Below, piece after piece: positions 45,737 to 64,000 of a stretch of 64,000 nt of DNA. A model generated the notes under the pieces. That model was given only the letters and a program-made list of their open reading frames with translations, did no database searches and was not told the DNA's origin. The DNA comes from Gemmataceae bacterium (GTDB lineage: Bacteria; Planctomycetota; Planctomycetia; Gemmatales; Gemmataceae). The stretch is from positions 1-64,000 of the forward strand of contig JAQGHQ010000342.1 in NCBI GenBank assembly GCA_028288765.1, written 5' to 3'. Position 1 is the stretch's first letter; each line of letters begins with the position of its first letter. The translations under genes and the position numbers were made by a program.

Positions 45737-45829
45737 AATGCGGAATGCTTCGAATGCGGAATGCGGAATCGAAGGCAGACGAGCCGGGCTTTCATTCCGC
45801 AATCCGCATTCCGCATTCCGCATTCGAAG
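45737..45829. repeat. Inverted GCGGAAT heptamer arrays between divergent genes
   Basis: Left arm 45737-45769 has repeated ATGCGGA units; right arm 45791-45829 has the complementary TCCGCAT units. A perfect 22-base inverted repeat is formed by 45748-45769 and 45808-45829, with 38 bases between. No gene lies inside. It is placed between argH (start 45678) and the secreted-protein gene (start 45923). Confidence 0.9.
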
Positions 45830-61326: not shown

Positions 61327-62205
61327 TCACCCTGCTCCGTCGAGCTCCTTCCGCCAGCTCTCGTACTCCTTCAACACCTGTTCCCGCGGACATCGCTCGC
61401 GGTAGATCGCCCGGGCCCTCAGCCGGTACTCCTTGTTCACCTCGTACGTGGGCAGGACGTACTGAAAGTCCCAGGCCGGGTTCGTGGTCTGGGCGGCGGT
61501 GTTGACCCCACCGCCGGTCGGCGACTGGGTCAGACGCAGCCCGTCGGATCGGTCGAACATCATGACAAAAATATGCTTGTTGAACAGGCCGTAGAACAGC
61601 GGGACGTCGTAGCGGACCGGCGACAGGTTCTTGTACAGACAGTCGCGGTGGTCCTTGGCGAACGTGAGTTCGAACGCATCCCGCTCGTGGGCGACGGTAC
61701 TCACCGCGTTGTGGGCCGGGGGGCAGTGCTGGAGCCAGAGGTTTTTCCCACGGAGGTACATGCTCTTGTCGTCCGGGGCGTTGATATAGCTCGCCCAGAA
61801 CAGGCCGAGGTACTTCCGCTTGAACGCGTGCTGCGTGGCCGTGAACCGGAAGTCGAGGTCGATGATGTCGGGCTCGCGGAGGGTAAACCGGGACGTGCTC
61901 TCGAGGTGGAATGTCGGGGTCGGAGGCTGGTACAGCTCGGCCCCGGCGGCCGAGAGCTTCCGGAGTGTCATCTTCGCGTTCCGGGGCTCGAAGAAGATGG
62001 CCGTCTTCCCGGGGGGGTCCACGGTTTCGCCGTCGAAGATGTGCTCGAAGTTGAGCCCGGCGACGATCGGCACGAACAGGTTCGTCGGCTCGGTCTTGTG
62101 CGTCAGGCTCCAGAGGCCGTTGTAGCCGGCCCGGTGCTGGCCTTGCGCGTCGTTGTCGCCAATGACGGCGGTCAGGTCGCCGACGGTGAAGGTGTCGTGG
62201 GGCAT
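61327..62205 (-). CDS. Uncharacterised planctomycete protein
   Basis: Unrecognised 292-residue protein, not convincingly matched to any family I know. It is mostly beta-strand, with S-R-F-T-L-R-E-P-D-I-I-D-L-D-F-R-F and many aromatic/His residues (H-N-A-V-S-T-V, F-Y-G-L-F-N-K-H-I-F-V-M-M-F). It resembles the exported sugar-related proteins that sit next to Gfo/Idh/MocA genes, but there is no signal peptide. Its ATG immediately follows the C-rich end of a nonamer array, so no ribosome site is visible. It may be read through from the upstream oxidoreductase and helical-bundle genes. Confidence 0.72.
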   Translation of the reverse strand: MPHDTFTVGDLTAVIGDNDAQGQHRAGYNGLWSLTHKTEPTNLFVPIVAGLNFEHIFDGETVDPPGKTAIFFEPRNAKMTLRKLSAAGAELYQPPTPTFHLESTSRFTLREPDIIDLDFRFTATQHAFKRKYLGLFWASYINAPDDKSMYLRGKNLWLQHCPPAHNAVSTVAHERDAFELTFAKDHRDCLYKNLSPVRYDVPLFYGLFNKHIFVMMFDRSDGLRLTQSPTGGGVNTAAQTTNPAWDFQYVLPTYEVNKEYRLRARAIYRERCPREQVLKEYESWRKELDGAG

Positions 62206-62320
62206 GGTCGGTGGGTGGGTGGGGTGGTGGGGTGGTGGGGTAGTGGGGTGGTGGGGTGGTGGGGTGGTGAGGTGAGATGAGGTGGTGGGGTGGTGGGGTG
62301 GTGAGGTAGTGGGGTGGTGG
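62206..62320. repeat. Left nonamer array of the four-helix-bundle element
   Basis: Tandem, slightly irregular GGGGTGGTG units (G-rich on the plus strand), with variants GGGGTAGTG and GGTGAGATGAGG. It spans exactly from the start codon of the gene at 62205 to the stop codon of the helical-bundle gene at 62321. G runs of four separated by TGGT could form G-quadruplexes. Confidence 0.93.
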
Positions 62321-62695
62321 CTACTCCGGGCCCTTGCGATTGTTCTGGAATTTGATCGACTGATTGATCTCTCTCGACAATTGCTCCACTTCCTCGATCA
62401 GCGAATCGAGTTCGATCTGGGTAATGAGTTGTCGGGCGAGGCATCGCCGAAGCCAGTAGACCGTTTCGCGCAATGAACCCCGTGAGTAATAAAGGAATTT
62501 CCTGACCTCACCTGGGTGGAATCGGCCCCCAGCCTCCGCGATATTTGCCCCGATCGAGTCGGCGGCCCGGGTCAGTTGCCCGCCGATTGTCTGTTTCAGG
62601 AACCAGTCCCAGCCGATAACCAGTTCCCAGATGCGATCCCCTACAGCTTCGGCCCGCTGGTAGACCCGTCTGTTCTCGATCGGCTCGTAGGGCAT
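62321..62695 (-). CDS. Four-helix-bundle protein (23S rRNA intervening-sequence protein family)
   Basis: A 124-residue protein of the S23/IVP four-helix-bundle family (TIGR02436 type), known from proteins encoded in 23S rRNA intervening sequences and sharing its fold with the Avd protein of diversity-generating retroelements. Recognisable are D-S-I-G-A-N-I-A-E-A, G-G-R-F, E-V-R-K-F-L-Y-Y-S-R-G-S-L-R-E-T and a Leu-rich last helix. Helix 1 begins E-N-R-R-V-Y-Q-R-A-E. The protein is basic enough to bind nucleic acid, but no catalytic residues are seen. It has only a weak ribosome site (CTGAG). It is bracketed by inverted nonamer arrays (62206-62320 and 62730-62811). Its function in the cell is unknown. 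Confidence 0.9.
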   Translation of the reverse strand: MPYEPIENRRVYQRAEAVGDRIWELVIGWDWFLKQTIGGQLTRAADSIGANIAEAGGRFHPGEVRKFLYYSRGSLRETVYWLRRCLARQLITQIELDSLIEEVEQLSREINQSIKFQNNRKGPE

Positions 62696-62729
62696 GGCGA
62701 GACTCAGCTTATCGGTTCCACAACATTAA

Positions 62730-62811
62730 CCCCACCATCTCACCACCTCATCTCACCACCCCACCACCCCACCACCCCACCACCCCACCACCCCACCACC
62801 CCACCACCTCA
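62730..62811. repeat. Right nonamer array of the four-helix-bundle element
   Basis: Tandem CCACCCCAC units (C-rich on the plus strand), the reverse complement of the left array. Both arrays share the variant GAGATGAGGTGGTG, as read on the G-rich strand. It begins 34 bases upstream of the bundle gene's start and ends at the stop codon of the oxidoreductase at 62813. Confidence 0.93.
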
Positions 62812-62812
62812 T

Positions 62813-64000
62813 TTACAACCCCGCCGTCTCGAACCCCTTGCGGTACGTTCGGCGGACGAACCGGTTCGCCTCCTCGACGTTCGTCACCTTCAGCTCCTTG
62901 GTGTCCCACTTCAGGTCCGTCTTCGGGAACCGGGTGGCGAGACACCCGAGCAGGACCATCTCGGTGAGCGGCCCGGAATAGCTGAACGGGGCCGAGGTGG
63001 TCCCGTTCCCGCGGACGGCCTCGACGAACTGGAGGTAGTGGTCGTCGCCCTTCACCTGTGGCTTCCTGAAGTCCTTGAACTTTTCGGCCGGGAGGAGGAC
63101 CGGATCGGCAATGTACGGGGAGTACATCACGCCCTCCGTGCCGATGTACACCGAGCCCTGGTCGTGGAGCTTCCCGCCGACGAGGTCCTGAACGCTCTTC
63201 GGCGGGCGGGCGTTGCCGTTGTACCACGTCAGGCCGACCGTCTCGGTGGTGTACTTGGTGCCCGGGAAGACGTATTTCACCTGGACGTCGAGGGACCAGT
63301 TGTAGTCGTTCGGGCCGGGCAGCTCGGACCGGATCGTGAGCGGATTGCCCACCCCCAACGACCCGAAGACCGGGTCGAGGATGTGACAGCCCATGTCGCC
63401 GAAGGTTCCGGTCCCGAAGTCGAGCCGCTTCCGCCAGTTGCCCGGGTGGTAATACCCGTTGCCGATGAACGGCCGCTCGGCCGCGACCCCGAGCCACAGG
63501 TCCCAGTTGAACCCGGCCGGGACCGGGTCGGTCCGGTCCGGCTTCGGGGTGGTATCGCCCCACGACTTCCCGCTCCAGGAGTGGACCTCCTTCACCTTCC
63601 CGATCGCCCCGTCGTGGACGAGCTGGACCACGAGCTTGTGGACCGGGTGCGAATGAATTTGAATGCCCATCTGGGTGATCAGTTTCTTCTCGGCCGCGAC
63701 CTCGGTGAGCCGGCGGGCCTCGTAGATCGTCTGGGTGAGCGGCTTCTGACCGTATACGTGCAGCCCCCGCTGGAGCGCCCGCATCCCGATCGGGGCGTGC
63801 ATGTGGTCGGGGGTCGAGACGTTCACCGAGTCGAGGTCCTTTTCCTTGTCGAGGAGGACCCGGTAGTCCTCGTAGACCCGGCAGTCCGGGAACCGCTTCT
63901 TGACCTCCCCCACCTTGGACTGATCGACCTCGGCCACCGCCACCAGCTTGAGGTTCTTGCTCGCGGTGAGCGACCCGATGTCGGACCCGGCCATCCCGCT
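62813..64000 (-). CDS. Gfo/Idh/MocA family oxidoreductase, truncated by the window edge
   Basis: N-terminally cut protein; the visible frame runs to the window end (the annotated ATG at 63994 follows in-frame coding sequence). It continues a Rossmann strand-loop ending V-S-G-M-A-G-S-D-I (the partial nucleotide-binding start) and the V-A-V-A-E-V-D segment. The mid-domain motif appears as V-Y-G-Q-K-P-L-T (in place of E-K-P). The C-terminal domain has T-G-T-F-G-D-M-G-C-H-I-L-D-P, a motif of the family. This is the sugar/inositol dehydrogenase-like class common near planctomycete surface-sugar genes. It ends directly at the nonamer array. Confidence 0.88.
   Translation of the reverse strand, partial: SGMAGSDIGSLTASKNLKLVAVAEVDQSKVGEVKKRFPDCRVYEDYRVLLDKEKDLDSVNVSTPDHMHAPIGMRALQRGLHVYGQKPLTQTIYEARRLTEVAAEKKLITQMGIQIHSHPVHKLVVQLVHDGAIGKVKEVHSWSGKSWGDTTPKPDRTDPVPAGFNWDLWLGVAAERPFIGNGYYHPGNWRKRLDFGTGTFGDMGCHILDPVFGSLGVGNPLTIRSELPGPNDYNWSLDVQVKYVFPGTKYTTETVGLTWYNGNARPPKSVQDLVGGKLHDQGSVYIGTEGVMYSPYIADPVLLPAEKFKDFRKPQVKGDDHYLQFVEAVRGNGTTSAPFSYSGPLTEMVLLGCLATRFPKTDLKWDTKELKVTNVEEANRFVRRTYRKGFETAGL

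Follow-up and report, generated by a model that had tools for sequence, protein, structure and literature searches.

The closest described relatives of the element presented here are the intervening sequences (IVSs) of 23S rRNA. In the IVS of Coxiella burnetii, the S23p gene is immediately preceded by tandem heptamers of the sequence GACAGAT, and a 28-bp terminal stem closes the structure (PMC4990558). Arrays of short repeats have also been described outside of rRNA genes. Rehm et al. reported GGGAATC arrays in Xanthomonas, with 70-75 of them per genome arranged as convergent pairs, as well as arrays of the heptamer GGGGA(C/T)T in Nostoc, in both cases of unknown function (PMC4692102), and MacGregor described TAACTGA repeats without giving a mechanism (PMC4679880). 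The latter and the heptamer repeats of cyanobacteria (STRR) resemble the present case in that they are intergenic heptamer arrays, and the G4 heptamers of Xanthomonas and Nostoc do so in often forming convergent intergenic pairs that are placed after the stops and before the starts of aligned genes (PMC4692102). The units of these G4 heptamers, GGGNATC and GGGGA(C/T)T, differ however from the GGGGTGGT found here, and for none of the repeats from Xanthomonas and Nostoc (PMC4692102), the STRR or the TAACTGA repeats (PMC4679880) has an associated protein or a mechanism been reported, whereas in the present case the unit is tied to a gene for a four-helix-bundle (FHB) protein. Our search, which covered the subscription literature only in part, retrieved no published link between an FHB or S23p gene and heptamer arrays.

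Two further types of systems are similar in part. In the pairs of MITEs and autonomous transposons, and likewise in REP-RAYT, a gene-bearing copy is accompanied by dispersed gene-less copies with the same ends, but here there is neither a recombinase gene nor a conserved loop, and the ends are tandem arrays with a unit that changes from genome to genome. Avd, the accessory protein of diversity-generating retroelements, is a small basic protein of the four-helix-bundle pentamer class. The FHB protein belongs to this same class of small basic four-helix bundles; in contrast to the retroelements, no reverse transcriptase is found among the immediate neighbours of its gene, and there is no template or variable repeat.

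Architecture of the element in the window

The window, by which we mean the whole stretch of 64,000 nt of DNA from a Gemmataceae bacterium that was analyzed (contig JAQGHQ010000342.1, positions 1 to 64,000), contains the element and its two neighbouring genes with the following features:

61327..62205, minus strand: downstream neighbour, a gene for 292 aa without a Pfam/NCBIfam match, whose ATG lies 4 nt from the left array
62210..62320, plus strand: left array, 13.6 copies of the 8-mer GGGGTGGT, 3' of the FHB gene and abutting its stop codon
62321..62695, minus strand: FHB gene, 124 aa, PF05635 (23S_rRNA_IVP) / TIGR02436
62696..62728, minus strand: leader of 33 nt, from the upstream array to the start codon of the FHB gene
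62729..62811, minus strand: right array, about 10 copies of GGGGTGGT on the minus strand (ACCCCACC on the plus strand), 5' of the FHB gene
62813..63994, minus strand: upstream neighbour, a GFO/IDH/MocA-type oxidoreductase, whose stop codon (62813) touches the right array

The FHB gene and both of its neighbours share the same strand, and the element takes up the gap between the two neighbours, as originally described: it adjoins the upstream stop codon (62813) on one side and stops 4 nt short of the downstream ATG (62205) on the other. The inverted arrays that had been proposed to surround the FHB gene are real, and a variant common to both arms exists, with the stretch GGTGAGATGAGGTGGTG present in each. 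The left array contains the variant units GAGGTAGT, GGGGTAGT and GAGATGAGGTGGT. Only the description of the unit as a nonamer has to be corrected, as the period is 8 and the unit is GGGGTGGT. The inverted arrays of this locus are far beyond chance: the complementarity of one flank to the other reaches a score of 123, as compared with a maximum of 31 in slid controls from the same locus. A transcript of the region can fold into a long stem with the FHB gene in its loop (z = -13.4), and in this point too the initial reading was right.

The FHB protein matches PF05635 at 1.5e-23 (83.4 bits versus a cut-off of 33.8) and TIGR02436 at 5e-24 (84.6 bits versus a cut-off of 24), and its structurally solved relatives are 2gsc (XCC0516) and 2rld. 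The genome from which the window originates contains eight PF05635 genes. No Rfam match was obtained for positions 61900-63100 at E<=1, and no defence gene was found with PADLOC.

The kinship to the 23S rRNA IVSs, suspected from the outset, is supported by the common protein family, by the position of the ORF within an inverted-repeat stem and by a size of about 600 nt here versus 428 nt for the IVS of Coxiella. Unlike an IVS, the window element is situated between two protein genes in an operon, outside of 23S rRNA and its helices 25 or 45, and it shows long arrays with an element-specific unit, together with dispersed gene-less pairs that share this unit. The arms had been considered unlike the stems of known IVSs, and this difference is smaller than claimed, given that the Coxiella IVS also has tandem heptamers (PMC4990558), but the long, element-specific arrays do set the present element apart. 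The heptamers and the stem of the Coxiella IVS suggest that the array element may have rRNA IVSs among its habitats.

Occurrence of the layout and properties of the unit

The arrangement of a gene within inverted arrays is not restricted to the window. Complementary flanks with a score of at least 32 were found for 126 of 195 PF05635 loci, a set that includes planctomycete loci, 80 loci from a scan of GTDB genomes and 8 from plasmids, versus 1 of 1021 slid control windows. Inverted arms around the bundle gene had been anticipated for related genomes, and the majority of the loci possess them. Within the planctomycete set of 87 loci, the 5' and 3' flanks of one and the same locus yielded a median score of 42, mismatched pairs of flanks yielded 17, and the maximum for slid windows of the same locus was 31. 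As evidenced by tandem-repeat scans, most FHB copies in the genome, the genus, the family and the phylum have inverted arrays of a 7-9 nt unit on either side, and the layout is also present in Cyanobacteria, Chloroflexota, Acidobacteriota, Proteobacteria, Bacteroidota, Clostridia and others. The arms stay under the threshold in about one third of the FHB loci, many of which seem decayed as judged by eye. No FHB gene was found in phage records.

When a single unit was required for both arms, 126-134 of the 195 loci were significant. A period of 7 is the most frequent (107 of 126 loci), followed by a period of 8. The sequence of the unit varies between elements, with 110 distinct units among 128 elements. 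Examples, given for the two arms, are GGACAGA/TCTGTCC, AGGGATG/TCATCCC, AGTGCGG/CACTCCG and GTTTGGT/ACCAAAC. Read on the strand toward the gene, the heptamers have the consensus AG[T/G]N[G/T]T[C/T], with 4.1 bits versus 3.2 bits for shuffled letters. The arrays are convergent, with the 5'-to-3' direction of a G/T-rich strand pointing inward from both sides, and among 118 informative units this inward strand contains more G than C in 105 cases and the reverse in 13. Similarity of the units tracks similarity of the proteins only at high identity (Mantel r = -0.21), with divergence below approximately 60% identity, and co-inheritance alone could explain this correlation. The FHB proteins have a median pI of 9.0.

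Note that the FHB genes of two congeners (L016 and L040) have an unusual compound repeat, AATGACGAATGACCCACC, in common, and that in one complete genome of 7.8 Mb (G001) six of the seven FHB genes are located within the first 0.7 Mb.

Gene-less array pairs and orthologous sites

The unit of an FHB element recurs in its own genome in convergent pairs of arrays that enclose no gene. Allowing for one mismatch at most, GGGGTGGTGGGGTGGTGGGG has 24 matches in the genome of the window and none in five congeners, and at up to three mismatches about ten gene-less convergent pairs are found in its own genome, always with the plus array preceding the minus array. Note that GGGGTGGT reads the same backwards, so that the reversed-pattern control carries no information for this unit. 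For three copies of AGGGATG, a second unit from this genus that belongs to an FHB element in G001, up to two mismatches gave 28 matches in G001, several gene-less pairs among them, compared with 9 in G003 and 0-1 in each remaining genome; the reversed-pattern control gave 0 in G001. Two units from other phyla were searched in eight unrelated genomes or records: three copies of AGTGGTT were confined to the two genomes with an FHB element of that unit, and three copies of AGGTGTC to the single genome whose element uses it. In one of these genomes (G212), the unit is limited to the element itself. A general scan yielded 15 gene-less pairs, 12 of which were within one mismatch of an FHB unit of their own genome, where 1.25 were expected. 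One pair from the gene-less scan (L192) turned out to enclose an FHB gene, and the loop of another (L054) holds an open frame of 101 residues.

The window contains a pair of this kind at some distance from the element:

45737..45825, no strand assigned: gene-less inverted heptamer pair AATGCGG ... CATTCCG, a unit other than that of the element, around a loop of 23 nt and located in the intergenic gap between divergent genes

The window's own assembly yielded no FHB gene with this unit, and the congener G003 has one that uses AGTGCGG/AATGCGG (L031). A second gene-less pair (L032) likewise has no matching FHB gene in its assembly; as many of the genomes are draft assemblies, the lack of a matching gene counts little. 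Two loci show a more complex arrangement. In the genome of the window, nested GGGGTGGT arrays, two plus and one minus, surround a further long palindrome (L002, C566, 1105-1526), and on a Chloroploca contig many AGGTGTC arrays in both orientations surround one FHB gene (L146, 1694-4612). All 35 genome matches of AGGTGTC are on one contig.

The joined flanks of nine elements from one genus were searched against sister species. This retrieved orthologous sites without the element, in which the gene and the arrays are missing together. Several of these empty sites hold an unrelated dispersed palindrome of about 55 nt, CCGCTTGCGGCTTAGCG...CGCTAAGCCGCAAGCGG (L116, L122 and L145; genus g10), and at L129 a comparable inverted repeat without a gene is present. 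Where orthologous elements are present, the unit can be altered on both arms, as for GAAGAAT in L098 and GAGGAAT in L111 and L113. For two gene-less pairs, clean empty sites were found in congeners, and at one of these pairs the upstream gene now terminates at a stop codon within the array. The FHB protein is under purifying selection, with dN/dS values of 0.03-0.19, and some FHB copies contain stop codons.

Origin and spread of the arrays

Inverted ends, presence or absence at orthologous sites, and gene-bearing and gene-less copies with the same ends are all features of an element in which the arrays would serve as terminal inverted repeats (TIRs) for the FHB protein and a recombinase acting in trans, and in which the gene-less copies would be MITE-like deletion derivatives. 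We nevertheless consider this explanation unlikely. The loops of gene-less pairs are unrelated, in that only 7% of loop pairs are similar at the 5% level and none is like the interior of an FHB element, and the derivation of gene-less pairs by deletion was rejected on these grounds. Neither are the arms inverted copies of one another, as their variant units do not follow a mirrored order (permutation over 102 elements, median p 0.65); this test has little power for any single element, and a few gene-less pairs do seem mirrored by eye. In addition, the FHB protein is not a known recombinase. No precise target-site duplication is visible at the two clean empty sites, but their identity of only about 80% limits this comparison.

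An RNA element in the manner of the IVSs, where formation of the long stem around the gene or its processing by RNase III would provide either the function or the tolerance by the host, is likewise improbable in our view. It would be in line with the strong folding of the window transcript, with a protein family that is named for the 23S IVSs and with the S23p gene, heptamers and 28-bp terminal stem of the Coxiella IVS. It would also fit the orientation of the FHB gene, which between same-strand neighbours is sense in 60 cases and antisense in 6 (p = 3e-12). Selection for an RNA stem, however, is expected to favour G-U over A-C among the mismatches between the arms, and with 168 G-U versus 180 A-C (p = 0.56) such an excess is not found. 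This argues against the stem as the selected design, there is no sign that pairing between the arms is protected, and conservation of the stem at the RNA level through G-U pairs was discarded as a candidate; in this respect, too, the element differs from the 23S IVSs. The gene-less pairs L250 and L255 have differing variants in their two arms. The lack of a G-U excess, the unmirrored variants and the unrelated loops together argue against a conserved RNA stem as well as against ordinary TIR transposition. What remains of the original concept of a self-contained protein-plus-structure element is the unit of gene and arrays, while an RNA stem as its purpose is at odds with the mismatches, the unmirrored variants and the existence of gene-less arrays.

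That the arrays are features of the host, such as terminators, G-quadruplexes or regulatory repeats that grow by slippage, with the FHB gene as a mere passenger, is very improbable, for although G4-forming heptamer repeats without known function often stand convergently between aligned genes in Xanthomonas and Nostoc (PMC4692102) and slippage does enlarge heptamer arrays, it cannot spread one unit over many loci of a single genome while its congeners have none, nearly all array-bearing FHB genes have the same unit in inverted orientation on both sides, the empty sites are devoid of arrays as well, and at loci that later gained the gene no ancestral site with arrays but without FHB gene was seen.

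We favour, with a probability of roughly 0.55, an IVS-related protein-coding element whose FHB protein recognizes arrays of its own unit and helps to propagate them. The feature in the window would then represent the gene-carrying form within a dispersed family of inverted short arrays. In each insertion, two tandem arrays of the same 7-8 nt unit would converge on an FHB gene or on any short loop. Arrays of its own unit are the most likely target of the basic FHB protein, which may act in cis at the locus that encodes it and in trans on copies without a gene, promoting the spread of the unit to new intergenic sites. Gaps between a stop codon and a start codon within operons would be the preferred sites, where transcription of the host operon would express the FHB gene. 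As the copies share nothing but the unit, with unrelated loops and an unmirrored order of variants, it is probably the arrays themselves that are copied or written, strand-specifically and on both sides of the insertion site, rather than the whole element being cut and pasted.

A bacterial form of array-writing is a tentative and rather unlikely way in which this might proceed. The FHB locus would contribute both the protein and the template for the repeat, G/T-rich, telomere-like repeats would be added strand-specifically to both 3' ends of an opened intergenic site, and the site would then be closed over arbitrary filler or the FHB gene. Such a process would account for the convergent polarity, the shared unit with unmirrored variants, the unrelated loops and the limitation of units to genomes. 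The likeness to telomeres, a unit of 7-8 nt with a G/T-rich strand that points at the former break, is put forward as a suggestion.

The favoured recognition and propagation of arrays by the FHB protein would tie together the S23/four-helix-bundle family, which is found in most phyla, the 23S rRNA IVSs and the intergenic heptamers of cyanobacteria, Xanthomonas and Beggiatoaceae, so that three bacterial oddities that have long been unexplained would be linked to one apparently mobile, repeat-spreading element. It provides a testable rule, by which the FHB gene leads to its flanking unit and the unit to a prediction of the repeat in the genome, and it suggests a class of mobile elements that conserve a repeat unit, re-spelled from genome to genome, instead of a fixed end sequence.

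With respect to the neighbouring genes, the typical order is an upstream stop codon followed by an array, the FHB gene, the second array and the next ATG. On cyanobacterial plasmids FHB genes are located between nrdB and nrdA, between cas6 and cas4 and between cas10 and cmr3, and two FHB elements on such plasmids (L228 and L230) lie within CRISPR-Cas operons of types I-D and III-B. At four loci (L101, L102, L112 and L115), FHB elements occupy several gaps of what by eye appear to be operons of the MoxR-DUF58 type, in the manner of insertion hot spots.
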